The notes under the pieces: generated by a model
What the model was told of the DNA's origin: nothing
What the model saw: only the letters and a program-made list of their open reading frames with translations
The model's database searches: none
Assembly (NCBI RefSeq): GCF_030646845.1
Contig: NZ_JAUSLE010000051.1
Coordinates: 62,001-126,000 of the forward strand
Direction: 5' to 3'
Length of the DNA: 64,000 nucleotides
DNA from: Rhodoferax sp.
Lineage (GTDB): Bacteria; Pseudomonadota; Gammaproteobacteria; Burkholderiales; Burkholderiaceae_C
Translations under genes and position numbers: made by a program
In this document: in pieces, positions 12,811-58,400 of the stretch
Numbering within the stretch: position 1 is the stretch's first letter
Layout: each line of letters starts with the position of its first letter

Positions 12811-12858
12811 GCTATGCTATCAATAGCTACTCGCGCAATGAACACGAGGATTTCTGGC
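12811..12858 (+). repeat. Dispersed 17-bp-core repeat, copy 1 (intergenic)
   Basis: The core GCTATGCTATCAATAGC (12811-12827) matches the GCTAT-N7-ATAGC pattern of the family, followed by a diverged tail TACTCGCGCAATGAACACG. It lies between the TSUP gene and the GMC terminator, in non-coding DNA. Confidence 0.7.
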
Positions 12859-12865
12859 ACTTCAA

Positions 12866-12896
12866 TTGAAAAAGGCACCGGGGTTACCGGTGCCTT
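12866..12896 (-). terminator. Rho-independent terminator downstream of the ECH-GMC operon
   Basis: A perfect 10-bp stem (AAGGCACCGG at 12872-12881 with CCGGTGCCTT at 12887-12896) and a 5-base loop; read on the minus strand the stem ends in a run of five T. It lies about 145 bases after the GMC oxidoreductase stop and before the TSUP start, so it fits termination of the ECH-GMC transcript. The stretch between holds only a second short hairpin (12976-12990, CGGGCC/GGCCCG) and no credible gene. Confidence 0.7.
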
Positions 12897-13039
12897 CTCA
12901 AATCGCAGTTGCTTGCAGATGCGTCTTTTTTGTATGCCCGTGCGGGCTTGTCTCCAGGGCCTTTTCTCCTTCAGCGGGCCTGAGGCCCGTTGACGAATGG
13001 CGCAAATGTACGCCCCCAAACCCATCGGCACATTAGGAC

Positions 13040-14770
13040 TTACCCTCTCAGCCGTTGCGCTGCGTCCTCGACGATCCATTGCGCTGCCTTCTCCGCAATC
13101 ATCAGCGTTGGTGAGTTGGTGTTGCCGCTGGTAATCAGCGGCATCACGCCGGCATCGACAACCCGCAGGCCGGCAATCAGGCCGCCTTTGCCGCGCACCC
13201 GAAGCCGCGAGTCCACCACCGCCATCGGATCATCCGACGTGCCCATTTTCGTGGTCCCCACGGGATGAAAGATGGTGGTGGCAATGTCGCCCGCCAGCTT
13301 GGCCAGGTCCTCGTCCGTCTGGTACTGGGGGCCGGGCCTCCACTCTTGCGGCTGGTACTGGCTGAGTGCCGGTTGGGCCACGATGTTGCGCGTGACACGC
13401 AGCGAATCGGCGGCCACCTTGCGATCGGCGTCGGTGCTCAGGTAGTTGGGCGCAATGGCCGGTGCGTCTTCAAACTGGCTGCTCTTGATCTGCACGGTAC
13501 CGCGACTCGTGGGGTTGAGGTTGCACACGCTGGCCGTGAACGCGTTGAAGCTGTGCAGCGGCTCGCCAAAAGCCTCCAGGCTGAGCGGTTGCACGTGGTA
13601 CTCGATGTTCGGATAGGGCTGGGCCGGGTCGCTGCGCGTGAAGGCGCCCAATTGCGAGGGCGCCATGCTCATCGGACCGGTTCGCTTGAGGGCGTACTCC
13701 AGGCCAATCATGGCTTTGCCCCAGAGTGAACTGGCCTGCGTGTTCAAGGTCTTGACGCCCTGGACCTTGAACACCGCACGAATCTGCAGATGATCCTGCA
13801 AGTTGGCCCCCACGCCCGGCGCGTCATGCGCCACGGCGATGCCGTGCTGCTGCAGCAGCGCCGCCGGACCAATGCCGGAGAGCTGCAGAATCTGGGGCGA
13901 ACCAATGCTGCCCGCACTCAGGATGACTTCCGCGGTGGCGGTGGCCGTCACCATCTCGGAGCTGGCCCACACCTGAACGCCAGTGCAGCGCTGGCTGCCA
14001 TCGGGCTGGGTTTCAAGCAGCAGCTTCGCCACCTGGGCCGAAGTCCACATCTCGAAATTGGGCCGTGCGTAACAGGTCGGACGCAAGAAGGCCTTGGCCG
14101 TGTTCCAGCGCCAACCCTCTTTCTGATTGACTTCGAAATAGCCCACGCCTTCGTTGTTGCCCTGGTTGAAGTCATCGCTGGCAGGAATGCCCGCCTGCTG
14201 CGCGGCCTGGGAAAACGCATCCAGCACATCCCAGCGCAGGCGCTGCTTTTCAACCCGCCATTCGCCACCGGCATTGCGGTGACGCAGCACCTGGGCGTAG
14301 GGGTCGGACTTGTTGCTCATCAGCGCCGGGGCGACGCCGCGCGCACCGTGCGAGGCGTTGGCACCTTTGTGATGGTCTTCATGCAGTTTGAAATACGGCA
14401 GAGCGTTACCCCAGGTCCAGGCATCGTCACCGGTGAGCCGCGCCCACTCGTTGTAATCACGGGACTGCCCGCGCATGTAAATCATGCCGTTGATGCTGCT
14501 GCACCCACCCAGCGTTTTGCCACGCGGGTAGCGCAAGGCTCGCCCGTTCAGGCCGGCGTCCGGTTCAGTGTTGTAAAGCCAGTCAGTGCGCGGGTTGCCG
14601 ATGCAATACAGATAGCCCACCGGGATGTGGATCCAGTGGTAGTCGTCACGGCGGCCTGCTTCGATCAGCAGGACGCGCTTGGTCGCATCCGCCGAGAGTC
14701 GGTTGGCCAGCAGGCAACCCGCCGTACCGGCGCCGATGATGATGTAGTCGAAAGTGGTGCTCATGCTCAT
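13040..14770 (-). CDS. GMC-family FAD-dependent oxidoreductase (choline/alcohol dehydrogenase-like)
   Basis: A 576-residue flavoprotein. The N-terminal FAD-binding motif is FDYIIIGAGTAGCLLANRLS; GMC signature 1 is seen in GGCSSINGMIYMRGQ, and signature 2 in GSIGSPQILQLSGIGP. The C-terminal catalytic region reads FHPVGTTKMG (His) and ITSGNTNSPTLMIAEKAA (second catalytic His replaced by Asn, as in many choline-dehydrogenase-like members). It oxidises an alcohol, exact substrate unknown. It overlaps the enoyl-CoA hydratase by four bases (ATGA), so the two work or are at least expressed together, suggesting oxidation of an alcohol that feeds acyl-CoA degradation. Confidence 0.9.
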   Translation of the reverse strand: MSMSTTFDYIIIGAGTAGCLLANRLSADATKRVLLIEAGRRDDYHWIHIPVGYLYCIGNPRTDWLYNTEPDAGLNGRALRYPRGKTLGGCSSINGMIYMRGQSRDYNEWARLTGDDAWTWGNALPYFKLHEDHHKGANASHGARGVAPALMSNKSDPYAQVLRHRNAGGEWRVEKQRLRWDVLDAFSQAAQQAGIPASDDFNQGNNEGVGYFEVNQKEGWRWNTAKAFLRPTCYARPNFEMWTSAQVAKLLLETQPDGSQRCTGVQVWASSEMVTATATAEVILSAGSIGSPQILQLSGIGPAALLQQHGIAVAHDAPGVGANLQDHLQIRAVFKVQGVKTLNTQASSLWGKAMIGLEYALKRTGPMSMAPSQLGAFTRSDPAQPYPNIEYHVQPLSLEAFGEPLHSFNAFTASVCNLNPTSRGTVQIKSSQFEDAPAIAPNYLSTDADRKVAADSLRVTRNIVAQPALSQYQPQEWRPGPQYQTDEDLAKLAGDIATTIFHPVGTTKMGTSDDPMAVVDSRLRVRGKGGLIAGLRVVDAGVMPLITSGNTNSPTLMIAEKAAQWIVEDAAQRLRG

Positions 14771-15555
14771 TGCCCGACCCAGTTCGGCTTGCGCTTTTCC
14801 TGGAACGCCTTCTGCCCCTCTTTGGCATCTTCGGTCAGGGTAAACAGGGCAATCTGACTCTCGGTGAACGACATGGATTCTTCAAACGCCATGGCCTCCA
14901 CCTTCTTGAGGGTGTACAGGCCGCGGCGGATGGCGGCGGGCGATTTGTCCAGCAAACGGTCCAGCAGCCACTGCAGTTTGGCGTCCACATCGTCATCCAC
15001 ATAATTCACCAGCCCAACTTCCAGCGCTTGCGCTGACGTGATGGGCTCGCCGGTCAGACACATCTCATTGAGTGTGCGGCGCGGGATCAGATGCTGCAAC
15101 ACGCTCAGCACCTGGGCCGGAAAGACGCCGACTTTGACTTCGGGCAGGCCAAACACCGCGTGGCGCGCCGCCACTGCCATGTCGCACATCGACATCAGGC
15201 CCATGCCACCCGCCATACAGGCGCCGTTCACCCGCGCAATCAGGGGCACATAACTGGCACGGGCGGCGCGCAACAACTGCGCCAGATGGCCGTGCGGTTC
15301 GGAATAGTCGGTGGTGAAGGCCTGGGCCGACTGCAAATCAGCGCCGGCGCAAAAGGCTTTTGCGCCAGCGCCGGTAATGACAATGGCGCGGATGTCGCGT
15401 TGACCCTGCGCCGCCGAGATTGCCTGCGTCATGCCAGCCAGTACACCGTGGCTCATGGCGTTGCGCCGCTCCTCGCGCGTGATGGTCAGCCACAGCACCG
15501 GGCCACGTTGTTCCACGCTCAGCTCTGGCGTGGATGACGAATTGGGATTGTTCAC
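14767..15555 (-). CDS. Enoyl-CoA hydratase/isomerase family protein
   Basis: A 262-residue crotonase-fold enzyme. The oxyanion-hole segments are AFCAGADL and NGACMAGGMGLMSMCDM; a Glu/Glu hydratase pair is not complete (the first position is Ala-Gly-Gly-Met, the second region reads FGLPEVKVGVFP with Glu), so it may be an isomerase or hydratase of an unusual acyl-CoA. GTG at 15555 is chosen because AGGAGA sits five bases upstream; an ATG 33 bases earlier lacks one. First gene of a two-gene operon with the GMC oxidoreductase. Confidence 0.85.
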   Translation of the reverse strand: MNNPNSSSTPELSVEQRGPVLWLTITREERRNAMSHGVLAGMTQAISAAQGQRDIRAIVITGAGAKAFCAGADLQSAQAFTTDYSEPHGHLAQLLRAARASYVPLIARVNGACMAGGMGLMSMCDMAVAARHAVFGLPEVKVGVFPAQVLSVLQHLIPRRTLNEMCLTGEPITSAQALEVGLVNYVDDDVDAKLQWLLDRLLDKSPAAIRRGLYTLKKVEAMAFEESMSFTESQIALFTLTEDAKEGQKAFQEKRKPNWVGQ

Positions 15556-15589
15556 GGGGTCTCCTGTTTGGGGGACATTTTGCCGCATC

Positions 15590-15621
15590 GCCCGATTGGC
15601 CTGAATCGGGCCATCGGGCGC
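15590..15621. promoter_or_regulatory. Three-armed inverted repeat between ECH and the SGNH hydrolase
   Basis: GCCCGAT (15590-15596) is followed by ATCGGGC (15605-15611) and again by ATCGGGC (15615-15621). The first arm can pair with either of the other two. It lies 35 bases upstream of the hydratase GTG, a position fitting an operator for the ECH-GMC operon. No regulator gene is adjacent. Confidence 0.4.
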
Positions 15622-15805
15622 GGCTCGACCTGTCGAAGAAATTTACACATCAACGGCCCTATCCAGTTTTTTGCACCGGCTTAATGCGCAAGCCCCTGTT
15701 TTCAAATGCCTTTTCAGGATGGCGCGAAATTTGCTGTCTGTTTTGTTGGCCGGCCGAAAACCAGGCGCCGCGACCGTGAAGTTCAACCAAAAAGAGAGAG
15801 ACAAG

Positions 15806-16789
15806 ATGATATTCAAACGCCTTCGCGCCATCCTGCTGCCCCTGCTCGTGAGCCTTCCCCTGAGTGCCCTGGCCGGGCCATTCACCCACCTGTTTGTGTT
15901 CGGCGACAGCCTGTCGGATACGGGAAACCTGTCCACCCTCACGGGTGGAGCAAACCCGGGAACCGCACAACCTTACGACAACGGACGCTATTCGAACGGC
16001 AAGCTGTGGATCGAGGGCCTGGCGGCCGGCCTGGGGCTCGCCAACGACGCCGCCCCGGCACTGCTGGGTGGCAACAACTACGCCTTTGCCGGTGCGCGTA
16101 CCGGCCTTGCCGGGAGCCCCCCCGGCCTGTTGGCGCAGGCGGCCGGTCTTTGGGGCACAGGCTACGCCCCCTGGGGACTGCCCGCTCATCTTTCTGCTGA
16201 TCCCAATGCCCTTTATGTGGTGGTGGGAGGCGGCAACGACATGCGTGATGCGCGCTCAGCCATCGGAGGCAACTCGGCGACCCGTCAGGCTGCAGCCGCG
16301 GCGGCCATCGGCAACCTCGCCAGTACCATCGGCTACCTGGCGAGCATGGGTGCCAAGAACGTCCTGATTTCCACACTGCCCGATCTGGGCTACACGCCGG
16401 AAGCGGTCCTCCTGGGCCTGACGGCAGCATCGTCCGACGCCTCGGCCTGGTTCAACGGGTATTTCCCCGGCCTGATGGGTTTCGGTGCCTCGCTGGGGTT
16501 GAACATGAACCTGCTGGACATGGCGGCCTTGTCCGCTGACATCCGGCAACATCCGTCAGACTATGGCATCACCAACACCAGCTGGCCGTGTGCCGGATTC
16601 GCCTATTCGCAAGGTGTGAGCTGCGATCAATCTTCATTCTCGGACGTCCTGCATCCCTCCGCTTACGGGCACAGTCTGTTCGCCCGCGCCGCACTCGACG
16701 TGCTGGGCGTTCCGGAACCCGATACCCTGGCCCTGTTCGGGCTGGCGTTGCTGGCGCTGGCCGTGGCGCGCCGCCGCCGGGCAAACTGA
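15806..16789 (+). CDS. PEP-CTERM SGNH/GDSL hydrolase (secreted esterase-like)
   Basis: A 327-residue exported protein. Signal peptide: FKRLRAILLPLLVSLPLSALAG. SGNH blocks: LFVFGDSLSDTGN with the nucleophile Ser (block I), VVVGGGNDMRD (block III) and DVLHPSAYGH with the Asp-x-x-His pair (block V). The C-terminus VPEPDTLALFGLALLALAVARRRRAN, cited as VPEP, then a hydrophobic helix, then RRRR, is a PEP-CTERM sorting tag, so an exosortase elsewhere in the genome should process it. ATG at 15806 follows AGAGAGAG. It acts outside the cytoplasm, perhaps on ester-linked exopolysaccharide or lipids. Single-gene unit. Confidence 0.88.
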   Translation: MIFKRLRAILLPLLVSLPLSALAGPFTHLFVFGDSLSDTGNLSTLTGGANPGTAQPYDNGRYSNGKLWIEGLAAGLGLANDAAPALLGGNNYAFAGARTGLAGSPPGLLAQAAGLWGTGYAPWGLPAHLSADPNALYVVVGGGNDMRDARSAIGGNSATRQAAAAAAIGNLASTIGYLASMGAKNVLISTLPDLGYTPEAVLLGLTAASSDASAWFNGYFPGLMGFGASLGLNMNLLDMAALSADIRQHPSDYGITNTSWPCAGFAYSQGVSCDQSSFSDVLHPSAYGHSLFARAALDVLGVPEPDTLALFGLALLALAVARRRRAN

Positions 16790-16927
16790 AGCCCGTTGGG
16801 GCGGTGACAGACGGGCACTGAAAGCCCGCCATGAATGAATTACGCGCTCGACACGCCGGGTGCGGTGCTGGATGACCTGCCTTTAGCGGTACGATCGAAC
16901 TCCAGCTTTAAGAGTCAATACCCCTCC

Positions 16928-18058
16928 ATGGAGGAAAACACCCCACGCATCACACGTCACACCACGCCCGAGGGTGTCAGTGTGCTGCTGTCGGGCTGCT
17001 GGGCGGCGGAGCGGCTGGCCGAGCCCGTGGCATGGGCACAGATTCAGTCGGAGTTGAGTGCATGCGCTGCGCCCGAAGCAACCGGCTGGAGCTGGGATTT
17101 GCGCACATTGGAGCGGCTGGACCATACCGGCGCCCAGCTGCTGTGGAACGCCTGGGACCACCAATGGCCGGCCAGGTTGTTGGTACTTGATCCACAGCGC
17201 GCGATGCTGGCGCGGGTGGCGCAGTACGCCATACGGCCCCCGGTGGCGACCCGCCTCTCGGCCTGGCAGGTTTTCCTGTCGCTCGGCGCCATGGTCTGGT
17301 TTCTGATTGACCATATCCGGGATTTGATCCGCCTGATGGGCCAGCTGCTGCTGGACGCCATCAAACTGGGGCGGGCACCGGCCAAGGGGCCCTGGCGCGA
17401 TGTGTCCGGCCATCTGTACCACATTGGCGCGACGGCATTGCCGATCACGGCGCTGGTGGGCTTTCTGATTGGCGTGGTGCTGGCCTACCTGATGTCGCTG
17501 CAGTTGCGCCAGTTTGGCGCCGATGCCTTCATCGTCAACATCCTGGGCATCTCCCTCATCCGCGAACTCGGGCCGGTGCTGGCGGCCATCCTGATCGCCG
17601 GGCGCTCCGGCTCGGCCATCACAGCGCAAATTGGCGTGATGCGGGTCACCGAAGAACTGGATGCCATGCGCGTGATGGGGATTGCCAAAGGCTACCGGCT
17701 GGTGCTGCCGCGCGCCATTGCGATGGCCGTGGCCATGCCCTTGCTGACGGTGTGGACCACGCTGGCAGCGCTGCTGGGCGGCATGCTGGCGGCAGACCTG
17801 GCGATGGGGGTGACGCCCGCCTATTTCTTTGCATCCCTCCCGCGGGCAGTGGAGATATCCAACCTCACGCTGGCAGTTGGCAAATCGGTGGTGTTCGGCC
17901 TGCTGATTGCGGTGATCGGCTGCCACTACGGTCTGCGCGTCAAACCCAATACCGAAAGCCTGGGGCAAGGCACCACGGCCTCGGTGGTGACCTCCATCAC
18001 CATGGTAATTCTGGTGGATGCGCTGTTTGCGGTCATCTTCAAGGACATCGGCATATGA
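16928..18058 (+). CDS. mlaE: MlaE-family ABC transporter permease with N-terminal STAS-like domain
   Basis: A 376-residue protein: residues about 1-100 form a STAS-like domain (LRTLERLDHTGAQLLWNAW block), and residues about 110-376 are the MlaE permease with five or six helices and the conserved FLIGVVLAYLMSLQLRQFGA, ELGPVLAAILIAGRSGSA and MRVTEELDAMRVMGI segments. It moves phospholipid or a related hydrophobic substrate between inner and outer membrane with MlaF and MlaD. In E. coli the STAS part is the separate MlaB; here it is fused. ATG at 16928 is chosen although its ribosome site is weak. Overlaps mlaF by four bases. Confidence 0.9.
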   Translation: MEENTPRITRHTTPEGVSVLLSGCWAAERLAEPVAWAQIQSELSACAAPEATGWSWDLRTLERLDHTGAQLLWNAWDHQWPARLLVLDPQRAMLARVAQYAIRPPVATRLSAWQVFLSLGAMVWFLIDHIRDLIRLMGQLLLDAIKLGRAPAKGPWRDVSGHLYHIGATALPITALVGFLIGVVLAYLMSLQLRQFGADAFIVNILGISLIRELGPVLAAILIAGRSGSAITAQIGVMRVTEELDAMRVMGIAKGYRLVLPRAIAMAVAMPLLTVWTTLAALLGGMLAADLAMGVTPAYFFASLPRAVEISNLTLAVGKSVVFGLLIAVIGCHYGLRVKPNTESLGQGTTASVVTSITMVILVDALFAVIFKDIGI

Positions 18059-18870: not shown

Positions 18871-18882
18871 AAAGAGAACCGT

Positions 18883-19848
18883 ATGGAAAACAAATCCCAC
18901 GCCCTGGCGGCCGGCGCTTTTGTGCTGGTGGTCACGGCCCTGCTCGTGGCACTGGCCACCTGGCTGACCCGCGACACCAGCGAACACCGGGTCTACGAAC
19001 TCTCCAGCGCCGAGGCAATCAGCGGCCTGCAACCACAGGCCGCCGTGCGCTTCAAGGGCGTGAACGTGGGCAAAGTCACGACCATCGGCTTCGACCCCCT
19101 GACCCCCCGCAATGTGCTGGTGCGCATCGCCATCGACGACCAGGCCCCCATCACCCAGTCAACCTTCGCCACGCTGGGCTTTCAGGGCGTCACCGGCCTG
19201 GCCTTTATACAGCTGGACGACAGCGGCGAGTCCAAAGTCGCTCTACCGGCCGGCACCGAGCCACCCGCCCGCATTCCGATGCGGCCCAGCCTGCTGTCGC
19301 GATTGACTGATCAGGGCGCCGGCATCCTGTCGCAACTGGAGGAAAGCAGTCGCCGCGTCAACCTGCTGCTCTCCCCCGAACACCAGAAAAGCCTGATGGG
19401 CGCCATCAACAACATGGGCCAGGCGGCTGCCAGCATCAACCAGCTCTCGACCAGCGCCAGCAAGACACTCCCGCCACTGGTGCAGGAAGCCAATGCCACA
19501 TTCAAGACCATGAAGATCACGTCGGTGCAGGTGGGCGAGAGCGCCGACGAGGCCCGTGCGTCAGCCCGGGCCTTCCGCACCGTCACCGAGCGCATGGATG
19601 AAAAAGGGGGCACGCTGGACCAACTGGCCGAAGGCGTGAACACCCTGGCCGCCACCGGGCAAGCCCTGAATGCCGCGACCCTGCCGCGACTCAACCGCGC
19701 CGTCGATGACGCCGCCCGCACGGCGCGCCAGGTGAGCCGGGCCGCCAACACGGTCAGCGACAACCCGCAGTCCCTGATTTTTGGCAATGGGCCGCCAGCG
19801 CCCGGTCCCGGCGAACCCGGCTTTTCTGCGCCCTCGGGCAAACCATGA
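18883..19848 (+). CDS. mlaD: MlaD/MCE-domain substrate-binding protein
   Basis: A 321-residue periplasmic protein anchored by one N-terminal helix (AAGAFVLVVTALLVALATWL). The MCE domain (about residues 38-120) contains GLQPQAAVRFKGVNVGKVTTIGF, cited as VRFKGVNVGKV, and LGFQGVTGLAFIQLDD. The C-terminal half is helical and rich in Ala/Ser/Thr/Gln, a long coiled-coil-like stretch as in PqiB/Mce proteins rather than the short E. coli MlaD, which suggests a tunnel or bridge across the periplasm. It is followed by the auxiliary lipoprotein. Confidence 0.9.
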   Translation: MENKSHALAAGAFVLVVTALLVALATWLTRDTSEHRVYELSSAEAISGLQPQAAVRFKGVNVGKVTTIGFDPLTPRNVLVRIAIDDQAPITQSTFATLGFQGVTGLAFIQLDDSGESKVALPAGTEPPARIPMRPSLLSRLTDQGAGILSQLEESSRRVNLLLSPEHQKSLMGAINNMGQAAASINQLSTSASKTLPPLVQEANATFKTMKITSVQVGESADEARASARAFRTVTERMDEKGGTLDQLAEGVNTLAATGQALNAATLPRLNRAVDDAARTARQVSRAANTVSDNPQSLIFGNGPPAPGPGEPGFSAPSGKP

Positions 19849-19853
19849 AGGAC

Positions 19854-19907
19854 GCTATGAATTTAATAGCTGCTCAAGCTTATTCCACAAGGGCTAGAGG
19901 CATATTT
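19854..19907 (+). repeat. Dispersed 17-bp-core repeat, copy 2 (start of the Mla lipoprotein gene)
   Basis: Core GCTATGAATTTAATAGC (19854-19870), then TGCTCAAGCTTATTCC and ACAAGGGCTAGAGG. This is the best-preserved copy. The ATG inside the core is the likely start codon of the lipoprotein gene, and the rest of the repeat encodes residues 2-17 of its signal peptide. Confidence 0.8.
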
Positions 19908-20504
19908 CTTCTAATTTCTCTGGTGCTGACCGGTTGTGCCCTGCCCGGCCAACCCGTGCGCCCGGCGATCTACGACTTTGGCCCCGGCGCCCGGAGTGCC
20001 GCGTCAGCCAGCCAAGCTCGTCTGGCCCCGCTGGCGGTGGCCGACGTTGAGGCCAACCCCGCGCTGGACAGCACCGCCGTCCTGTACCGGCTGGCCTATG
20101 CCGACGACCAACAACTGAAGGCCTATGCCCAGGCGCGCTGGAGCATGCCACCGGCCCAGTTGGTTCGACAGCGCCTGCGCGAACGCTTGGGTCAGCACCG
20201 CGCCCTGCTCAACCCCGGGGAAGGCGGCTTGCCAGGTGCACCGGCCCCACTCACGCTGCGCATTGAACTGGAGGAGTTCAGCCAGCTGTTCGAGGCGCCC
20301 GACAAAAGCGTGGGCCTGCTGCGCCTGCGCGCCACGGTGGTCCGGCCCGGCTCCGGTGGTGAAACACTGGTGGCGCAGCGCAGCGTGACCGTACAGCGAC
20401 CGGCCATCAGTGCGGACGCTCCTGGCGGCGTGCGCGCCATGACGGCCGCCACGGACGCCGCGGTGGGAGAGCTTGACCAGTGGCTGCAAGGGCTGATGCC
20501 CTGA
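19857..20504 (+). CDS. ABC-type transport auxiliary lipoprotein (PqiC/LptE-like, Mla operon)
   Basis: A 215-residue outer-membrane lipoprotein. The signal peptide ends in the lipobox LTGC (Cys about residue 26), and the mature part has the beta-sandwich pattern of the ABC transport auxiliary family, with SVGLLRLRATVV and TVQRPA strands and a C-terminal helix AATDAAVGELDQWLQGL. By analogy with PqiC it should receive lipid from the MCE protein at the outer membrane. ATG at 19857 has AAGGA four bases upstream; ATG at 19845, overlapping the mlaD stop, would add four residues. The first 17 codons are encoded by a dispersed repeat. Confidence 0.82.
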   Translation: MNLIAAQAYSTRARGIFLLISLVLTGCALPGQPVRPAIYDFGPGARSAASASQARLAPLAVADVEANPALDSTAVLYRLAYADDQQLKAYAQARWSMPPAQLVRQRLRERLGQHRALLNPGEGGLPGAPAPLTLRIELEEFSQLFEAPDKSVGLLRLRATVVRPGSGGETLVAQRSVTVQRPAISADAPGGVRAMTAATDAAVGELDQWLQGLMP

Positions 20505-20523
20505 ACCTCACAAGCTCAGCACC

Positions 20524-21879: not shown

Positions 21880-21902
21880 AGCGCCCGCTACAGGATTTCC
21901 AC

Positions 21903-22582: not shown

Positions 22583-24442
22583 CTACCAGGCGTCGATCGC
22601 CAGGCCGTTCGCCGCTGGCAACTCCCGCTGCGCCTGCAGACCGCTCACCAGCCAGTCCCGCGTCTGCGCCGGATCGATCACCGCGTCAATCTCCAGCGTG
22701 GCAGCCATGTTGATGGCGCTGCCGTTGTCGTATTGCCTGGCCACCAGTTGCTCGTACAAGGCCTCGCGCTCCAGCCCCTCGGGCGCCGCTTCGAGCTCCT
22801 TGCGGTAGCCCAGCCGCACGGCCCCTTCCAGCCCCATGGCGCCAAACTCAGCCGAAGGCCAGGCCACGGTGAACAAGGGTGAGTGAAAGCCGCCGGCGGT
22901 CATGGCCATCGCACCCAAACCGTAGCCCTTGCGCAGCACCACACTCAAAAACGGCACCCGCAAATGCGCGGCTGCCAGGAACATGCGGCTCACATGACGC
23001 ACTTGCGCCTGTTGCTCCATCTCCGGGCCGACCATGAAGCCGGGCGTGTCCACCAGGCTCACCAGCGGCAGGCCGTGCGCGTTGCACAACTGCATGAAAC
23101 GGGCGGCCTTGTCCGCAGCGTCGGCGTCAATGGCCCCGCCCAGGTGCAGCGGGTTGTTGGCCAGCAGGCCGACCGGGCGGCCCTCGATGCGCGCCAGCGC
23201 GGTGTGAATGCCTTTGCCGAAGCCGGTGCGCAGTTCCAACAGGCTGCCCTGGTCTGCAATGCCGGCCAGGGCGGCACGCGTGTCGTACACCCGCAAGCGG
23301 TTTTCCGGCACCACGTCGCGCAGCGCCTGTGCATCCGGGGTCAGCCATTCCTTGACCCGCCCCTGGAAAAACGACAGGTAGTGCCGCGCCGCCGCCACGG
23401 CCTCCAACTCATCGTTCACCAGGATATCGATCACGCCGTTGCCGTGCTGCACGCTGCTGGGGCCAATCTGCTCCGGCTTGAACACACCCAGGCCGCCCCC
23501 CTCCACCATGGCCGGTCCGCCCATGCCGATGTTGCTATTTCTCGTGGCGATGATGACGTCGCTGCAGCCCAGCAGCGCCGCATTGCCGGCAAAGCAGCGC
23601 CCCGCCACGATGCCCACCACCGGCACTTGGCCATTGAGGCGCGCATAGCTGGCGAAAGTCGCCACATGCAGACCGGCCACGATTGGCATGTCGACATCGC
23701 CCGGGCGGCCACCACCGCCTTCGGCAAACAGCACCACCGGCAGTTTTTGTTGCAGCGCCAGCCCCAGCATGCGGTCGGTTTTCTGGTGGTTGCGCATGCC
23801 CTGGGTGCCGGCCAGCACCGTGGCGTCGTAGGACATCACGACCGCGCGGCTGTGCTCCGGCCCAAACAGGTTCTGGTTGATGCTGCCCATGCCGGTCACC
23901 ATGCCATCGGCCGGCGTGTTCTTGATCAGGTCCTCCTCCGAACGGCGACTGCGTTGCGCGGCGACAGCCAGCGCCCCGTATTCCATGAAGGAATCGGCAT
24001 CGCACAAGTCGGCGATGTTCTCGCGCGCCGTGCGCTGGCCCAGGGCATGACGCTTGGCCACAGCGTCGGGGCGGTTGGCGTCCGCGGTGAAGGCCTGGCG
24101 ATCCAGTACCCGCTGCAGGTCGGCCCGCGGCTCTGTGGTCGGCTCCGGGTGAACGGGCGAAGAGGGGGCACCCGCTCCAGCCGTTTTATGAGCCGAATCG
24201 GCCTCCAGCCCACGTATCTCCTGCGCAAGCCGCTCCATATTTGATAGCAACTCACCTTCTGCCACCAGCGCGCCGTTGTCAAAGAACAGTTCAAGCACCC
24301 GTCCTGCATGTTGGGCACGCACTTCGTGCTCCATCTTCATGGCTTCCAGAATGACCACCAGGTCACCGGCTTTGACGGTATCACCGGGCTGGACCTGCCA
24401 TTGAACAATCTGGGCTTGCAAGGGGGAACGGATTTCAGTCAT
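22583..24442 (-). CDS. Biotinyl-domain / carboxyltransferase fusion protein (acyl-CoA carboxylase subunit)
   Basis: A 619-residue fusion. Residues about 1-70 are a biotin-carrier domain with the biotin-accepting Lys in EAMKM; residues about 120-619 are an acyl-CoA carboxyltransferase of PccB/AccD-A type (RTARENIADLCD, GGGGRPGDVD, GRCFAGNAALLGCSDVIIA, VDTPGFMVGPE, LRKGYGLGAMAM). It would move CO2 from biotin to an acyl-CoA. Biotin carboxylase is not in the window and must be supplied in trans. The linker (about residues 65-95) is encoded by a dispersed repeat. ATG at 24442 starts right at MTEIRSPLQAQIV; the ribosome site is weak. Substrate unknown. Confidence 0.85.
   Translation of the reverse strand: MTEIRSPLQAQIVQWQVQPGDTVKAGDLVVILEAMKMEHEVRAQHAGRVLELFFDNGALVAEGELLSNMERLAQEIRGLEADSAHKTAGAGAPSSPVHPEPTTEPRADLQRVLDRQAFTADANRPDAVAKRHALGQRTARENIADLCDADSFMEYGALAVAAQRSRRSEEDLIKNTPADGMVTGMGSINQNLFGPEHSRAVVMSYDATVLAGTQGMRNHQKTDRMLGLALQQKLPVVLFAEGGGGRPGDVDMPIVAGLHVATFASYARLNGQVPVVGIVAGRCFAGNAALLGCSDVIIATRNSNIGMGGPAMVEGGGLGVFKPEQIGPSSVQHGNGVIDILVNDELEAVAAARHYLSFFQGRVKEWLTPDAQALRDVVPENRLRVYDTRAALAGIADQGSLLELRTGFGKGIHTALARIEGRPVGLLANNPLHLGGAIDADAADKAARFMQLCNAHGLPLVSLVDTPGFMVGPEMEQQAQVRHVSRMFLAAAHLRVPFLSVVLRKGYGLGAMAMTAGGFHSPLFTVAWPSAEFGAMGLEGAVRLGYRKELEAAPEGLEREALYEQLVARQYDNGSAINMAATLEIDAVIDPAQTRDWLVSGLQAQRELPAANGLAIDAW
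24199..24248 (-). repeat. Dispersed 17-bp-core repeat, copy 3 (in the carboxyltransferase gene)
   Basis: On the minus strand the core is GCTATCAAATATGGAGC (24232-24248), followed by GGCTTGCGCAGGAG and GGGCTGGAGGCC. It is in frame and encodes LLSNMERLAQEIRGLEA, the hinge between biotinyl and carboxyltransferase domains. The right half of the core is the variant GGAGC (GCTCC on the plus strand), shared with copy 6. Confidence 0.7.
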
Positions 24443-24602
24443 GGGCAGGTGGTGGCTTGGACAAGCGGCGCAACATTGGGCCTGCGCCGGTGGCCCGCTT
24501 GAAATTACCACAAGGGGCGGCCAGCGCGTGTCGCGGGCGTTTTCGCGGAATCACCCGCCGCCTGCGGCCATCAGTACACTGGCGTTCAGAAAACATCTAT
24601 AT

Positions 24603-24620: not shown

Positions 24621-24634
24621 GCTAAGATGGAGAC

Positions 24635-50544: not shown

Positions 50545-50879
50545 GCTGACCTCGTGTTTCAAGACAAACTTGAATTCTTTTGCGAATTGTCAACGAATTG
50601 TTACAAACGTCCTATGCACTAATTCACGGTAAACCGGGTTGTGAAACGCTGAGTTTGATCTTTTCGCACAGTCAATGCGCCGGCGAGGCATCCGGTCGCA
50701 CAATGGCGCTGACGCCATGGTTTTATAAGATATTGGCCGCTAACCATCGTCCACATTGCTTTAGCAGCTATGAAATAAATAGCAACAATGGTTTTTCCCG
50801 AGTGTCTGAATTGAAGGCTGGACGATGACAGCCACGGGATCGCTGCGCATCATTGGGCGGTGAAAAGAATGAGGTCGTC
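50545..50879. other. Intergenic region between the STAND regulator and the PEP-CTERM/pga cluster
   Basis: A 335-base, AT-richer gap upstream of the PEP-CTERM gene and downstream of the STAND regulator. It holds repeat copy 4 and an ATGGCG/CGCCAT hairpin (50703-50718) followed on the plus strand by GGTTTTAT, of uncertain meaning. No gene is visible. Confidence 0.5.
50735..50783 (-). repeat. Dispersed 17-bp-core repeat, copy 4 (intergenic)
   Basis: On the minus strand the core GCTATTTATTTCATAGC (50767-50783) is followed by TGCTAAAGCAATGTGG and GGTTAGCGGCC, aligning with copies 2 and 5. It lies between the STAND regulator and the PEP-CTERM/pga cluster. Confidence 0.7.
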
Positions 50880-53800
50880 TCAGGGAGCCGACGTCAAATT
50901 GGAAGTCAAACCCGATCCACCGAGATCCTTCACAATTTGCTCAGCAATCGTTCGGGCGCGCGCTTCGCTGTTGTTTTTGCCGGCGCCGTCACCGAGCCCA
51001 GCGGCGACCCGGGCGAGCGCGCCGTGACACTCCCACGCCAATCGGCCTCGGCCGGTCTGCTCGGCCAGCGTCACCGCCAGCGTCAACTCGTGTTGTGCAG
51101 ATTCAAAGGCATTGACGGCCAGCCATGCCAAACCGCGCAAGCGATGGGCTTGTCCCACCAGTGCCCGCATGTCGCCGCGAGTTGCCAGCGCCAGCAACTG
51201 GTCTGCATGCGTGATGCACCCATCCACGTCGCCATTCGCCAGCGCCAACTCGGCGAGCGCCTCCAGGCAGCGCAGCGTCAACCAGGCTTCACTGTGATCT
51301 TGCGCGTACTGGTGAGCCGCCTGCAACGCCGCCCGATCGCACGGAATGTCAAGGCGCAGTTGTGCAATCGCCAAATTGGCCTGCAGCCTGGGCCGCCAGT
51401 ACGTGATCCCGGCATCAAGCGCGACGTGCAGGCCCCGTTCATAGTGAGGCAACGCCTGCTCGGGCCGATTCAGATCGAGGAACAGGCAGCCCAGCGCGTC
51501 ATGCGCCATGATCTGGTATCGCACCAGCCGCAGCGTCTCTAGGCGGGGCAGCGCTTCGTTCAGATCAGCCCAGGCAGCACCGAACTTGCCGAGCGCCATC
51601 TGCACATGGGCACGTCCGATCAGTGTCGGACCCAGATGCCACTGCAGGTCGGCGGCTCGCGCGATGGCAAGCGCGGCATCGAAGTGCGACAAGGCGCGCT
51701 GGTAGTCAGCCAGCCCCATGTGACCGGTGCAAGCCCAGCCGATCATCATCAGGTTCTCCGATTCATAGCTCTTGTCGCCGATGCCGCGCGCCAGGTCGAG
51801 TGAACGCGAGAAAGAGGCAATGGCCGCGGCCGGTTCGGCGTTGGCAAAGTACGCCTCCCCCCGGCCATGAAACGCCTGCACGGCGACCAGGTCAGTCAGC
51901 GCCAGGCGCTCGCAGATATCCACCGCTTGCTGGTGATAGCTGATCGCCAGGTCGTTGCGACCATTGCTCCAGGCCACCGTTCCCAGGTGATACAAGGTAT
52001 CTGCCGCATGGCGTTCATCGCCCATGGCCAGCGACACCTTGAGCGCCTCGTCCAGGCAGACAATGGCCTGCTCATACGCGTCGGCGCGTCGATAGGCCAT
52101 GCCGAGCTGAATCAATACGTCACGCGCCTGTTCGTGCTCGCCAAGCGCGCGCGCTGCATCGATCGCCTGCTGAAAGTCGGCCACCGCCCCCTCGGTCTGG
52201 CCTGCCTGCGCCCGCGCCACGCCACGCCGCTCGTACAGGGCGAGTTGCTGCGCCTGCGTCGCCGCTTCGGGATGTGCCTGGAGCAACGCCACGGCGCGAT
52301 CGAACCAGTGCAGCGATTCGCGCATCGCAAACAGCTTCTGCGAGTGGTCGGCGGCCAGGCCGAGGTAGCGCAGCGCTTTGGGCCAGACATTGGCGCGCTC
52401 GTAGTGCTCGGCAAGACGGGCATCGAGTTCATGCGTTTTGCTTGTCGGATGCTGCTCCAGCATCTCGGCCACCGCTCGATGCAGCAGCACGCGCCGGGCA
52501 ATGCCGATGTCCCGGTAGACCACCTCTCGCACCTTTTCGTGACTGAAGTCATAGAACCCGCCTTCCTGATCCTCGCGCAAGAGCCGGCGCTTCACCAAAG
52601 ACTCAATAGCGTGCAAAAAGCGCTCCTCGGGTTCCCGGGTCAGCGCGAGCAGCGTTTCAAAGTCAAAGCGACGGCCCAGCACCGCCGCCAGGTCGAGCAG
52701 CGGCCGATCTTCATGCGGCACGCGTGCCAGGCGGCGACGCACCGAGTCACGCAGGGCGTCCGGCAGCGGCAGGCTGCCAGCATCCCTGACGGCACAGTCA
52801 CCCTCGCTCAGCGAGTGCATGATCGACCAGAGGAAGAACGGGTTTCCATCGGTTTCACGGTGCAGGCGGACGGCGAGATCGGGCGCGCTCAATTTCGGGT
52901 CGTTCAGCCGTTCGATCAGCATTTCGGTATCGCCTGGTCCGAACCGGGTCAGCGCCATGTGCCGCGTATGCGGTTCGCGGCGCAGGCGCTCGACCAGACT
53001 GGCGAGGCGTTCGTTGTCGTCAAGCTCCTCGTCCCGATAAGCACAGGCGAGGAGTAGCGGCCGGCCCGCCATCTGCCGTGCGAGGAAATGCAGAAACTGC
53101 AGGCTGGCGTCGTCGGCCCATTGAATGTCGTCGATCATGACAATCAACTGCCGGTCTTGCGCCAGCGCGTCCAGAAGTTGCCCCAGTGCATGAAACAGGC
53201 GCGCCTGGCGCGCCTCAGGAAAATCCGCCGAAAGTGGCACCCGTTCAACCAGACGGGCGGCCATGACGGGCACCAGCGCGGCGATCTCGGCGAGGAAAAT
53301 CGGCGCGATTCTGCGTAGCCGGGTCTCGGACGTGGCCTCGCACGCCTGCGTGGCGAGGTCAATGACAGGTTGATACGCTATCGCGCGTTCAATCTCATAG
53401 CAGCTCGTGACCAGCGTCGGCAAAGACCGCTGCCGCGCATAGCGCGCTACTTCATGCATGAGTCGGCTCTTGCCGATGCCGGCCTCGCCTTCGATGAGTA
53501 CCACCTGTCCGCTGCCCGCCGTCAGCCTGGCGATCAGACCGAGGAACTGCCCGTACTCGTTGGTGCGCCCGACAAAGGGAGACTTTTGCTCGCCTGCAAA
53601 TGCGAGCCCATCGCTTGCGGCAGCGGCGGTCAGTGCCTCGATGGGCGATTCGTCAAGCGGCAAGCGGTCGGAAGTTCGCAAGGCACGGGCGGCTTGCAGA
53701 AACGCCGCCCGCTCCTGCGCGGGAATGGCGAGTTGCTCCGCCAGGCGTTGGGCCAGCCCTCTCGAAGGCCGGCGTTCCTCGGCTTCGATCTTCTTGATGG

Positions 53801-53906
53801 CAGCCTGCGAACAACTGACTTTTTGCGCCAGTGCGTCTTGCGTCAAATCAAGCGCCTTGCGTCTGCGCCGCAGCCAGTATCCGAAAGAATTGCTTCGTTC
53901 GTCCAT
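50880..53906 (-). CDS. XRE-HTH / AAA ATPase / TPR regulator (STAND-like)
   Basis: A 1008-residue signal-transduction ATPase. Residues about 7-62 form an XRE-type HTH (LTQDALAQKVSCSQAAIKKIEAEERRPS, cited as LTQDALAQKVSCSQAAIKK). An AAA/NACHT-like ATPase follows (about 110-430): SPFVGRTNEYGQF, Walker A EGEAGIGKSRLMHE, Walker B VMIDDIQWADD, and ETDGNPFFLWSI. From about 480 to 1000 are TPR-type helical repeats. Family relatives sense a ligand through the repeats and switch on transcription; there is no LuxR domain, so DNA contact must come from the N-terminal XRE domain. It is divergent from the truncated haemoglobin gene and probably controls it. Confidence 0.85.
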   Translation of the reverse strand: MDERSNSFGYWLRRRRKALDLTQDALAQKVSCSQAAIKKIEAEERRPSRGLAQRLAEQLAIPAQERAAFLQAARALRTSDRLPLDESPIEALTAAAASDGLAFAGEQKSPFVGRTNEYGQFLGLIARLTAGSGQVVLIEGEAGIGKSRLMHEVARYARQRSLPTLVTSCYEIERAIAYQPVIDLATQACEATSETRLRRIAPIFLAEIAALVPVMAARLVERVPLSADFPEARQARLFHALGQLLDALAQDRQLIVMIDDIQWADDASLQFLHFLARQMAGRPLLLACAYRDEELDDNERLASLVERLRREPHTRHMALTRFGPGDTEMLIERLNDPKLSAPDLAVRLHRETDGNPFFLWSIMHSLSEGDCAVRDAGSLPLPDALRDSVRRRLARVPHEDRPLLDLAAVLGRRFDFETLLALTREPEERFLHAIESLVKRRLLREDQEGGFYDFSHEKVREVVYRDIGIARRVLLHRAVAEMLEQHPTSKTHELDARLAEHYERANVWPKALRYLGLAADHSQKLFAMRESLHWFDRAVALLQAHPEAATQAQQLALYERRGVARAQAGQTEGAVADFQQAIDAARALGEHEQARDVLIQLGMAYRRADAYEQAIVCLDEALKVSLAMGDERHAADTLYHLGTVAWSNGRNDLAISYHQQAVDICERLALTDLVAVQAFHGRGEAYFANAEPAAAIASFSRSLDLARGIGDKSYESENLMMIGWACTGHMGLADYQRALSHFDAALAIARAADLQWHLGPTLIGRAHVQMALGKFGAAWADLNEALPRLETLRLVRYQIMAHDALGCLFLDLNRPEQALPHYERGLHVALDAGITYWRPRLQANLAIAQLRLDIPCDRAALQAAHQYAQDHSEAWLTLRCLEALAELALANGDVDGCITHADQLLALATRGDMRALVGQAHRLRGLAWLAVNAFESAQHELTLAVTLAEQTGRGRLAWECHGALARVAAGLGDGAGKNNSEARARTIAEQIVKDLGGSGLTSNLTSAP

Positions 53907-54115
53907 ATCCGGTGCCTCAGTCCTCGTTGCCCGTGTCGACGCATCTTATGCCTGCAATTTGCCGCTGTCCCTCTTTTTGTATCCCTGTTTGTCCATTTCG
54001 TGGTGACCCTGCGCCGAGGCCGATGGTGTGCAATGCCTTGGCGTGTTCCGGAATCGCGAATGCGTTGGATCACGGTGAAATCAGCGAAGACCCTCAACCT
54101 CAAAAGGAGTTTCCT

Positions 54116-54478
54116 ATGACTACTGCACTGTACGAACGACTGGGCGGCGCAGACGGTATCGCGCGCCTCGTGGACGACATCATTGCCACACACCTGGCCA
54201 ATCCCCTCGTCAAGACCCGTTTCGAGAACATCAAAGACATGGCGCATATCAAACAGTTGTCGCGTGAATTTTTAACCACTGGCTCGGGCGGTCCCCAAAC
54301 TTACACCGGCAAGGGCATGCTCGCCGCGCACAAAGGCATGAACGTCAGTGAGCAAGAGTTCTTGGTAGTGATTGATGACATCTTTGTGGCGCTGAACAAG
54401 AATGGCATAGACGAGGATTCGAAGAAAGACGTCCTCGCCATTCTGTATTCGCTCAAGGACCAGATCATCCGCGTATAG
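54116..54478 (+). CDS. glbN: Group 1 truncated haemoglobin
   Basis: A 120-residue globin of trHbN type. It begins TTALYERLGGADGIARLVDDI, with the proximal His72 in AAHKGMNVSEQEF and the FENIKDMAHIKQLSREFL E-helix region with its Gln/Leu pocket residues. Such proteins bind O2 and NO and can dioxygenate NO to nitrate. AAAAGGAG precedes ATG 54116. It is the first gene of a probable two-gene operon with the SAM methyltransferase 61 bases downstream, divergent from the STAND regulator. Length and motifs are normal. Confidence 0.93.
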   Translation: MTTALYERLGGADGIARLVDDIIATHLANPLVKTRFENIKDMAHIKQLSREFLTTGSGGPQTYTGKGMLAAHKGMNVSEQEFLVVIDDIFVALNKNGIDEDSKKDVLAILYSLKDQIIRV

Positions 54479-54539
54479 ATCAATACGCCCAGCCCACGCA
54501 AACCATCTGAAGTAAAAACCTTATTCAAGGAGCACGATT

Positions 54540-55367
54540 ATGGAAACCTTATCACCGCCACTGGCCACCGACTTGGGGGCGGTCAAGCAGAAGCAGCAGG
54601 CAGCCTGGTCGGCAGGCGACTACGCCGTCATCGGAACAACCTTGCAGATCGTCGGCGAGACGCTGTGCGAAGCGCTCGATTTACGTGCAGGCGCGCGTGT
54701 GCTGGATGTCGCTGCCGGCAATGGCAACGCCACGCTGGCAGCGGCGCGACGCTGGTGCGATGTTGTCTCGACCGACTACGTGGGCGCATTGCTCGAACGG
54801 GGTCAGGCGCGGGCGAGTGCCGAGGGCCTGGCCGTGCAGTTCAAAGAAGCGGATGCCGAGAACCTCCCTTACGCGGACGCATCGTTTGATGTCGTACTGT
54901 CCACGTTCGGTGTGATGTTTACACCGAACCAGGACCGGGCAGCGAGTGAACTCGCCCGCGTGTGCAAATCAGGCGGGAAGATCGGGCTGGCGAACTGGAC
55001 GCCGCCCGGCTTCATCGGTGAGTTGTTCAAGGTGATCGGGCGCTATATCCCCCCACCCGCCGGCGTCAAACCGGCCTCGCTGTGGGGCACCGAAGAACGA
55101 CTGCGCGAGCTGTTCAATGAGCGCATCGCCACGCTCGAAACAACCCACAAGGACTTCGTGTTTCGCTACCGCACGCCTCAGCACTGGCTCGACACCTTCC
55201 GGACCTACTACGGCCCGATGCAAAAGGCTTTCAACGCGGTGGGGACCGCCCAAGAGGAGTCCTTGGCCGCCGATCTGATAGGACTCGTGCAACGGTTCAA
55301 CCGCGCAAGCGACGGCGCGATGGTCGTGCCGAGCGAGTACCTGGAAGTCGCAATCACGATCCACTAA
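54540..55367 (+). CDS. Class I SAM-dependent methyltransferase (UbiE/COQ5-like)
   Basis: A 275-residue enzyme. SAM-binding motif I is VLDVAAGNGNATLAAA, then VVSTDYVGALLERG with the acidic residue, KEADAENLPYADASFDVVLSTFGVMF, and SGGKIGLANWTPPGF. It resembles methyltransferase type 11 proteins of the ubiquinone/menaquinone family but is too divergent to be the ubiE housekeeping gene. AAGGAGC precedes ATG. Same direction as the truncated haemoglobin; the pair downstream of one regulator suggests a common response, target unknown. Confidence 0.82.
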   Translation: METLSPPLATDLGAVKQKQQAAWSAGDYAVIGTTLQIVGETLCEALDLRAGARVLDVAAGNGNATLAAARRWCDVVSTDYVGALLERGQARASAEGLAVQFKEADAENLPYADASFDVVLSTFGVMFTPNQDRAASELARVCKSGGKIGLANWTPPGFIGELFKVIGRYIPPPAGVKPASLWGTEERLRELFNERIATLETTHKDFVFRYRTPQHWLDTFRTYYGPMQKAFNAVGTAQEESLAADLIGLVQRFNRASDGAMVVPSEYLEVAITIH

Positions 55368-55440
55368 CCGCAAATCGGCGGCGGGAAAAGGAGGCGTCGG
55401 GCATGGGCTTCATGGGGAATTTGCGTGTGGATTGCACCGC

Positions 55441-58400
55441 TCACCCCGCCAGCAGCGCCGCGTTGCCCCCCGCCGCCGCCGTGTTGACCGTGATGGTCTG
55501 CTCGGCGCAAAAACGGTACAGGTAGTGCGGGCCACCCGCCTTGGGGCCGGTGCCGCTCAGGCCCTCGCCGCCGAACGGCTGCACGCCGACCACGGCGCCG
55601 ATCTGGTTGCGGTTGATGTAGACGTTGCCAACATGCGCGGCGCGCGCCAGTGCTTGAGCCCGGGAGTCGATGCGGGTCTGGATGCCGAGAGTCAGGCCGT
55701 AGCCCAGCGCATTGATCTGGTCGACAACAGCGGCGGGGTCACCGTTCCAGCGCACGATGTGCAGCACGGGGCCGAAGATTTCCTGCTTCAGGTCAGCGAT
55801 GGACGCGACTTCAAAGGCATGGGGCGGGATCAGGTTTGCTATTGATTTAATAGCTGTTTGTGCATTATCGACGTGGGTTAGCAATGGTTTTGACTCCATA
55901 GTCAAGCATGCCACGTGCTTCTGGATGGCGTCAAACGCTTCCCGGTCAATGACGGGGCCGACGTCGGTGGTCAGATCAGCGGGGTCGCCAGTGACCAGCT
56001 CTTTGGCCGCACCCTGAATCATCTCGATCACCTGGTCGGCTATTGTGGAATGCACGCACAGCAAACGCAGCGCCGAGCAGCGCTGGCCGGCGCTTCTGAA
56101 TGCCGACTGCATGACGGCATCCACCACCTGCTCGGGCAAGGCGCTGCTGTCCACCAGCATGGCGTTGATGCCGCCGGTCTCGGCAATCAGGGGAACGATG
56201 GGGCCGTCTTTGGCGGCCAGCGTGCGGTTGATGATTTTGGCGACCTGGGTGGAGCCGGTGAACACCACGCCGGCCACGCCGGGGGCCGCCACCAGTGCGG
56301 CGCCTACGGTTTCGCCGGGGCCGTGAAGCAGTTGCAACGCGCCCTCGGGTACACCAGCCGCGTGCAGCAGTTTCACCGCTTCCAGCGCGACGCCAGGGGT
56401 TTGCTCCGCCGGTTTGGCCAGCACCGTGTTGCCGGTGGCCAGGGCGGCGGCCACCTGGCCCACAAAAATGGCGAGCGGGAAGTTCCACGGGCTGATGCAG
56501 ACCCAGGGGCCGCGGGCGACCAGGCGCAACTCGTTGCTCTCGCCCGTGACACCCAGCGTCGCGGCACCGCTGTGGCCTGGCATGACCATCGGCACCATGA
56601 TGCGCTCGGCCTCCCCCGCGTAATAACGCATGAAGTCGACCGCCTCGCGCACCTCGCTGACGGCATCGCCCCAGGTCTTGAAGGCCTCCTTGACCAGCAG
56701 GGCGCAGAACCTGGGCAGCTGGTCTTCAAGTTCATCAGCGGCACGGCGCAGGATCTCGGCACGCTCCGTCACCGCCGTTTTGCTCCATTTTTGATAGCTG
56801 CATACGCTTATGGCCAGAGGACCAGCAGCCAATTTGGCATCAAACACCGGCACGGCCGGCACTTGCACCGCTTGATAAGCCGCCAGCAAGGGAGCACGCA
56901 TGATTTGTACCGTCAGGTCCAGCCCGGCGCTGTTTTTGCGCGCCGCCCCAAAGATATCGGCGGGCATCGGCAGCGAGGACTCCGGCGCCAGGCGCAGAGG
57001 CGAAATCAGCAGCTCCTGCATACCGACTGACTCGTCGGCCAGCTGGTGCACGAAAGACGAATTGGCGCCGTTTTCCAGCAGCCGGCGCACCAGGTAAGCC
57101 AGCAGGTCTTTGTGCGCACCAACCGGGGCATAGACGCGGCAGGCGATCAGCGGGTTCTTCAGCACCTCGCGGTACACGCCTTCGCCCATGCCATGCAGGC
57201 TCTGCAATTCAAATTGGGGCCCGCGATGGAGCACCGCCGGGCCGCCCCAAGGTGCGAGAGCCCCCTCGGGGGGCAGCGCAGCACGCGAAGCGGCAGGCGT
57301 GGGGGCCACACTTGCCATTTGCAGAATGGCGGCGATGGTGGCGGCGTTGTGGGTGGCGAACTGGGGGTAAACGGCATCGGGCGCATCCAGCAAAGCCCGG
57401 GCGCAGGCCAGGTAGGACACATCGGTGTGGTGCTTGTGGGTGAATACCGGGTAAGCGGGCAAGCCCAGCTCCTGCGCGCGCTTGATCTCGGCGTCCCAAT
57501 ACGCGCCCTTGACCAGGCGGCACATCAGGCGAATCTTGTACTGGCGCGCCATGGCGGTGATGTGTTCAATCAGTTCCAGCGCCCGAGTCTGGTAGGCCTG
57601 CATGGCCAGGCCAAAGCCGCGCCACTGCGTACAGTGCTGCGCCACCTGGGACGCCAGCGCCTCAAACACGTCCAGCGACAACTCCAGCCGGTCCACTTCT
57701 TCGGCGTCGATCGTCAGATTGATGTTGGCGCGCGCCGCCTGTTCGCACAGGCCCCACACGCGCGGCACCAGTTCGGCCATGACCCGCGCTTTCTGGCCGT
57801 CCTCAAAACGCGGGTGCAGCGCGCTGAGCTTGATGGAGATGCCATCGTTTACCTCGCAAGCCCCCGTGGAGCAAGCGTCATCAGCTATTGATTGAATAGC
57901 ATTCTGATAGCTTGCGAGGTACTTCGAGGCATCGGCACCGGTGCGCGCGCCTTCACCCAGCATGTCATAGCTGACCCGCAGATTCCTGATTTTGCGTTTG
58001 GCGGATGAAGCTTCGTCCATGGCCTCGTCAATGGTCTGGCCCAGCACAAACTGGCGGCCCAGCAATTGCACCGCGCGCAGCGTCGCCGCCACCACCGAGC
58101 GCGCGCCCAGCTTGGCCAGGATGCCGGTCGGTGCGTCGCTGTCGGGCAAAAATTTCTTGCTGAGGGCAATGGCCGCACTGGAAAGGCGCGCCAGCGCCTT
58201 GTCGCCCGCGCTGTCAAAGTCCGCCCGGCCCAGCTGGTCCGCGGTGAGCGCGATGGCGGTCTCGGCATCGGGCACGCGCAAGAGCGCCTCGGCCAGGCGC
58301 ATCAAGGCCAGACCTTCGGCACTGGAAATGGGATATTCCTTGAGCAGGCTCTCCATGGCCCAAAACGGCGGCGGGTTCTGGCGCACGGCCTGTACCCAGG

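Follow-up and report, generated by a model that had tools for sequence, protein, structure and literature searches.

A dispersed repeat of about 55 bp in Comamonadaceae occupies fixed places within conserved genes and tends to match there the tail of its own genome

Palindromic repeats can occur inside protein genes, as do the Rickettsia palindromic elements, which are in-frame insertions that lengthen the protein. Within the group studied here, Tong et al. described pairs of short motifs in 2017 (PMC5217627): ATAGCT(N)22CAAAAG has 125 copies in Polaromonas naphthalenivorans, GCTTAT(N)5AAGCG has 114 in Acidovorax ebreus, and Rhodoferax ferrireducens T118 has the most pairs, which are mostly intergenic, sometimes in genes and often between convergent genes. 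The BRE repeats of Bordetella and other betaproteobacteria are 75-91 bp long and were also reported from Comamonadaceae, with some copies in open reading frames (ORFs); they show tandem arrays and 69% G+C in Bordetella and have only 4 copies in R. ferrireducens (PMC3110155). Repetitive extragenic palindromic (REP) sequences are known in genes; in recB of two Xanthomonas species, for example, different REPs occupy nearly the same position (PMC3733652). Here we analyzed a window of 64,000 nucleotides from Rhodoferax sp. (assembly GCF_030646845.1, contig NZ_JAUSLE010000051.1, positions 62,001 to 126,000), together with its genome and relatives, and describe a dispersed repeat of about 55 bp that lies both between and within genes. 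No earlier account of the whole element, of its rewriting in genes or of its lineage-specific tails was found in the open-licence PMC literature (supplements excluded), and in the accessible parts of two Rhodoferax genome papers CRISPR repeats are the sole repeats mentioned.

The repeat combines a constant 17-bp dyad core, GCTAT-N7-ATAGC, with an asymmetric tail of 36 bp; in aligned copies ATAGC is usually followed by a T. It is dispersed in a fixed geometry, and at several places it lies within conserved genes, mostly without lengthening them, with a codon choice peculiar to the site and a tail that tends to be of the type found elsewhere in the same genome. The exact core occurs 194 times in the genome (4.35 Mb, 88 contigs), against 4 occurrences of a reversed-pattern control. 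In the window it is present five times, at 12811, 19854, 50767, 55838 and 57884; a search allowing one mismatch gave 6 matches versus a shuffle mean of 0.41, and a profile built from genome copies gave exactly seven matches at E<1e-4. These are the same seven sites that the first-pass annotation of the window had listed, five exact and two, at 24232 and 56782, with GCTCC in one arm, and its view that such a number is beyond chance, with hundreds of copies to be expected genome-wide, holds in the window and in the genome alike. The aligned tails that it reported are present as well, but not in a single direction: the tail lies on the + strand for the copies at 12811, 19854, 55838 and 56782 and on the - strand, leftward, for those at 24232, 50767 and 57884.

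The spacing of the arms is fixed, with 95 sites at N7 and a total of 5 over thirteen other spacings between 2 and 15, counted in stretches of five genomes that were mostly picked for holding N7 sites. The 7-base spacer of the core is A+T-rich (79% A+T in genome G000, 70-97% in thirteen genomes). About 1 Mb of such stretches, whose choice for exact cores inflates densities, contained 155 tail-bearing copies and none of a reversed-arm control. Both arms are exact in 102 of these copies, one arm is changed once in 23, and each arm carries one change in 10, of which 5 are compensated; the compensatory changes predicted in the first-pass annotation are only weakly borne out. For G010, G067, G062, G263 and G096 the consensus is predicted to fold into a strong second hairpin, but not for others such as G000 and G092. 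We rejected a conserved second hairpin, as it is not common to all tails and compensated arm changes are outnumbered by uncompensated ones. The repeat consensus shows no evident terminal inverted repeat, and the window and 14 loci gave no Rfam match at the gathering score.

Exact cores number 0 to 317 across a family panel of 299 genomes (control 0-7) and are abundant in many genera, while 24 genomes from other families of the order are near chance (0-10, control 0-18). Among 35 genomes of the same genus the counts run from 0 to 181, and congeners can differ almost completely: genomes of genus g89 have 206, 284, 1 and 2 copies, which makes this genus a good place to seek a trans factor. The family-wide counts, the copy number and the fixed spacing agree with the earlier reading of a dispersed small repeat of Comamonadaceae type. 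That reading had not seen the location in genes, the copies in place in putA and yggS or the matching of tails within a genome.

Most copies in the window are in genes, as was found by mapping them to gene boundaries: four lie wholly within genes and the copy at 19854 overlaps the start of an ORF. Three are in putA (55441..58512, - strand), which codes for a proline dehydrogenase / aldehyde dehydrogenase with the Pfam domains Pro_dh, Aldedh and Pro_dh-DNA_bdg. Site A (57843..57906, - strand, 38.8 bits with the profile) is sense, and its core encodes AIQSIA; site B (56782..56850, + strand, 28.4 bits) and site C (55825..55903, + strand, 40.6 bits) are antisense. The GCTCC arm of site B may be imposed by a conserved Trp codon, TGG. 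Copies were found at the same three positions and in the same orientations in relatives when 80 public loci were searched with a G000-type profile, which biases the copy-bearing class to that tail. After L068 (partial) and L077 (a stretched match) were dropped, 79 putA sequences, namely the window and 78 loci, could be compared, and at least one copy was present in 46 and none in 33. Rhodoferax records account for the best four PutA loci found, at 82-83% identity, in a search that may omit records lying very close to the window.

Copies at sites A and B mostly leave the length of the protein unchanged. In the alignment a single row has extra residues at site A (L090) and a single row at site B (L094), L089 ends at B, and the proteins are otherwise of equal length with or without a copy. 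The nearest PutA of known structure, 4q72 from Bradyrhizobium, shows a difference of 1 residue at A and of 2 at B, and in other genera the length at site B was kept in nine of nine genomes. At site C, a loop that varies in length, an insertion may have taken place; at A and B the outgroup alignments reject the insertion of a whole copy. Rare codons mark the copy-bearing class: Ile209, in site A, is ATA in 44 of the 46 copy-bearing sequences and in 2 of the 33 others, and Ala205 is GCT in 45 of 46 versus 1 of 33, a comparison that is partly circular since the classes come from the same hits. When 731 conserved putA columns were scanned, the six most extreme codon choices all fell in site A (205, 209, 210 and 213) and site C (887 and 892); in the other class, these six do not appear in the top 22 of 715 columns.

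The tails of the repeat differ around shared blocks across thirteen genomes of eleven genera, and the copies in putA follow the tail of their genome. In nine genomes, sites A, B and C were each scored with tail profiles made for every genome from 10-41 copies outside putA, and the own profile was the best in 19 of 27 tests (one a near tie). Permutation of the genomes gave p = 5e-5 for each site and for their sum, the lowest value that the test can give. When putA was scanned blind, in 330 windows covering the two strands, A, B and C alone stood out, with an own-tail effect of 15-17; the next value was 5.1 (B, other strand) and the standard deviation 2.15. The match can be read directly at site C, which is AGCTGCTTCCGCGATATTCTGTTGGTCTAG in G116, where the tail is AGCTGCTCCCGCGATATTCTATTGGGCTGG, and which in G276 contains AGGCAGTAAATACGCCGGCTA, the tail of that genome. 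The tail of G116 (L200-L209) is nearly uniform, with 43 bits over 36 columns in 10 copies, as if it had spread recently, and is not of the GCGCTT/AAGCGC hairpin type.

Recurrence at orthologous places was also seen for the sites in yggS, garR and the window's carboxyltransferase gene. For yggS, genomes were classed by putA (29 with copies and 23 without), and the comparison is free of the circularity of the putA classes. The three most extreme of 168 yggS columns are at the repeat site (Arg179 as AGG in 20 of 21, Val171 as GTA in 21 of 21 and Ala172 as GCT in 25 of 26); they are absent from the ten columns shown for the other class, in which the neighboring Arg181 is present (AGG in 6 of 15). 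E. coli YggS aligns across the site without a gap, and an insertion of a whole copy in yggS is thereby rejected. The own-tail test with 12 genomes gave a permutation p of 5e-5, the own profile being best in four and second in five; G088 and G276 have an exact core with the tail of their own genus, and no repeat site is visible in yggS of G062, G067 and G263. Codon outliers are weak in garR, and the carboxyltransferase gene has too few orthologs for such a test (12, of which 3 are in the copy-bearing class).

Over the five-genome stretches, our own gene calls, made by a single method based on codon usage, place 46 of the 155 copies inside genes, 22 over gene ends and 87 in intergenic DNA. The 108 copies that are outside genes with neighbors on both sides include 35 in the 13.6 kb of spacer that separates convergent genes but only 7 in the 31.1 kb that separates divergent ones. 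The in-gene copies are antisense in 33 cases and sense in 13, and 32 of the 46 have the core in the frame GCT ATN NNN NNN ATA GC, in which ATAGC gives no stop. Of 141 sites on the G010 chromosome, the 100 that were listed show no clear replication-strand bias (39 on + and 35 on - in the right replichore, 10 on + and 16 on - in the left).

Between genes, a copy can come or go as a block. We compared nirD in 18 loci of the genus, four of which had no usable nirB neighbor. The nirB-nirD spacer measures 79-94 bp in five loci with an exact core, 55-149 bp in four loci with an imperfect copy (judged by eye) and -1 to 37 bp in five loci without a visible copy; the presence of a copy adds about 60 bp. 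Upstream of nirD in L312, L313 and L314, the copy is fused with the start region of the gene: an AGGA-type ribosome-binding sequence lies in the core spacer, and AAA-ATG comes after ATAGC. Spacers of orthologous gene pairs around putA gave two usable pairs only, with overlapping length ranges. In two genomes of the genus that are about 80% identical, four of five sites are orthologous, one with a one-base arm change, and the fifth, which is intergenic, is missing along with its stretch.

Four copies of the window lie outside putA. Two are intergenic by gene calls, 12802..12883 on the + strand with the exact core at 12811 (37.1 bits) and 50712..50792 on the - strand with the exact core at 50767 (52.2 bits). 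A third (24183..24255, - strand, 30.1 bits) is sense, with one arm reading GGAGC on the - strand, and lies in the gene of a carboxyl transferase with a biotinyl domain (22583..24511, - strand; Pfam Carboxyl_trans and Biotin_lipoyl). The fourth, with its exact core at 19854 (19850..19925, + strand, 55.4 bits), covers the start of the ORF 19845..20504 on the + strand, an ABC-type transport auxiliary lipoprotein (Pfam ABC_trans_aux) whose N-terminal region is encoded by the copy, as seen in the translation. By eye, a copy encodes an apparent lipoprotein signal peptide in two different genomes (window 19845-19940 and L105:12490-12590). Outside the family, a class 1 integron cassette with a DUF1010 frame, presumably the one named gcuF/orfF, holds a copy beside resistance cassettes at L336:2501-2543 (E. 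coli plasmid pUMNK88) and L338:2001-2039. The repeat matches 1783 plasmid records, mostly of Escherichia, Klebsiella and Salmonella, and the cassette was viewed in one of these and in one island record. This suggests an origin of the cassette related to Comamonadaceae, and the repeat could be used as a marker for DNA of such origin.

Two kinds of enzyme were considered as drivers, and both were rejected. The Y1 (IS200-type) transposase, PF01797, is present in 33 of 38 genomes irrespective of copy number; it is absent from the repeat-rich G077 (235 copies) and G184 (215 copies) and present in many repeat-poor genomes. One weak Y1-type match, in a frame a few hundred residues long, is all that many of the 38 genomes have, whether or not they are rich in the repeat. 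Reverse transcriptase (PF00078), as in retrons or diversity-generating retroelements, is present in 14 of 34 genomes without a match to copy number and was not found in G088, G276, G148, G116, G096, G067 and G077. In the consensus of nine genomes, the foot of the palindrome carries neither a GTAG nor a CGTC tag.

The gain of blocks between genes, the replacement inside genes and the joint change per lineage make templated copying with homogenization, filtered by selection on the host proteins, the best explanation. It may well be, although we would stop short of an even bet, that the repeat is kept uniform in each genome by templated copying of the gene-conversion kind and is tolerated in genes where the frame survives. 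With a little more reserve, we consider it possible that copies overwrite matching segments in place, ORFs included, conserved enzymes being re-encoded in the current version of the repeat. One copy would act as the template, and its sequence would be inserted in, or laid over, DNA with a partial match to it. A whole copy could be added by such a paste in intergenic DNA, and inside genes only pastes that keep the frame and a tolerable peptide would survive, leaving a stretch of the gene written in repeat sequence; if the tail changes in a lineage, the in-gene copies would be rewritten too. Candidate mechanisms are the annealing of short single-stranded DNA at the fork, a switch of template at the dyad, and an enzyme yet to be described. 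For Acinetobacter, Harms et al. reportedly described in 2016 how short stretches of the chromosome are replaced by DNA that originates in the same genome. The tails hold 23-43 bits, to which the fixed core adds, whereas by our arithmetic about 200 sites in 4.35 Mb would need roughly 15 bits for recognition alone, and this excess points to copying. From these patterns we infer templated copying as the cause, rather than selection for a protein that binds the repeat. Several observations weigh against this proposal. The own tail was not the best in 8 of 27 putA tests, and another genome's profile scored higher in 8 of 12 yggS tests, several of these cases being places without a visible site (negative scores) and others near ties or sister genomes. 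Some genes are longer at the site: 4-13 extra residues follow site A in five of nine genomes of other genera (G088, G276, G092, G116 and G159), and yggS of G088 and G276 has 4-8 extra residues near the core. No machinery was found among the Y1 transposases and reverse transcriptases tested, and no single-step overwriting event was seen. Finally, the codon constraint could also stem from selection for a protein bound to the DNA.

That last point leads to another reading, improbable in our view: the repeat would be bound by a protein that organizes the chromosome or regulates genes, ordinary selection would maintain the individual sites, and the tail would drift with the protein. A dyad with fixed spacing, the constraint at the codon level and sites on both strands along the listed part of the G010 chromosome are what such a site would give; yet the strong avoidance of divergent spacers is unlike promoter regulation, some congeners lack the repeat nearly completely, and the information in the tail is far above the need. 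A transposable repeat of the REP type, or like a miniature inverted-repeat transposable element, moved by a transposase and leaving old tolerated insertions in genes, is more doubtful still. Its size, copy number, palindrome and preference for convergent spacers fit, as do the block of about 60 bp at nirB-nirD and the REPs known in recB (PMC3733652). However, the consensus has no GTAG/CGTC tag, the Y1 family, the sole transposase family examined, does not follow the copies, and old insertions would not track changes of the tail; for the in-gene copies at putA A, putA B and yggS, where no whole-copy insertion took place, this explanation is largely refuted. The main rival, rather unlikely in our judgment but less so than these two, is a watermark for self-recognition like the DNA uptake sequences (DUS): a competence receptor would prefer DNA with the repeat, biased uptake would keep the sites matched, those in genes included, and the tail would shift with the receptor. 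DUS dialects with a constant core are known (PMC3630211), and Verminephrobacter, of the Comamonadaceae, is naturally transformable with hints of selective uptake (PMC4212676). Sites in genes and between genes, on both strands without a clear bias among the listed G010 sites, and the nearly all-or-none copy number within genera such as g89 are also in its favor. Against it, the repeat is much longer than the 9-11 bp given for known DUS (PMC4212676), about 200 exact cores per genome contrast with the thousands reported for DUS (PMC3630211), and the gain of a block at nirB-nirD and the length of the tail are less well explained than by templated copying.

From an evolutionary perspective, the usual view is that repeats reach genes as insertions and that coding DNA evolves through point changes under selection on the protein. 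Here, parts of conserved enzyme genes conform to a genome-wide repeat, even in rare codons and in tails specific to the lineage; this pattern suggests a process that continually rewrites the repeat in place within genes. If copying is the cause, this would be a natural in-frame editing of coding sequence; if recognition is the cause, the repeat would be a self-recognition signal of unusual length, in a group suspected of selective DNA uptake (PMC4212676). Either way, concerted evolution in bacterial coding DNA becomes testable.

Compared with known systems, the repeat resembles each in part. BRE, compared by its description only, looks like a different repeat. Rickettsia palindromic elements lengthen their host proteins, unlike the repeat at putA A and B and in yggS. 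REP sequences and their associated transposases (RAYT) are similar in being short, palindromic and dispersed, with a preference for convergent spacers and some copies in genes, but the repeat has no GTAG/CGTC tag, its copies are not tracked by a Y1 transposase, and those in genes are in place and tail-matched. As in the DUS dialects of Neisseriaceae, there is a genome-wide signal with a constant core and a lineage-specific remainder, and over-representation, in-gene sites and dialects are found here as in DUS; DUS differ in being short, in having thousands of copies and in acting in transformation, whereas this element of about 55 bp has hundreds of copies and is known from sequence alone. The motif pairs of Tong et al. 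come from the same host group and have a similar copy number; their paper, in the section consulted, describes the pairs alone and does not treat rewriting in genes or tails specific to a lineage. In some tail types the repeat contains ATAGCT and GCTTAT..AAGCG, and judging by this resemblance we infer that these pairs may be pieces of the repeat described here.

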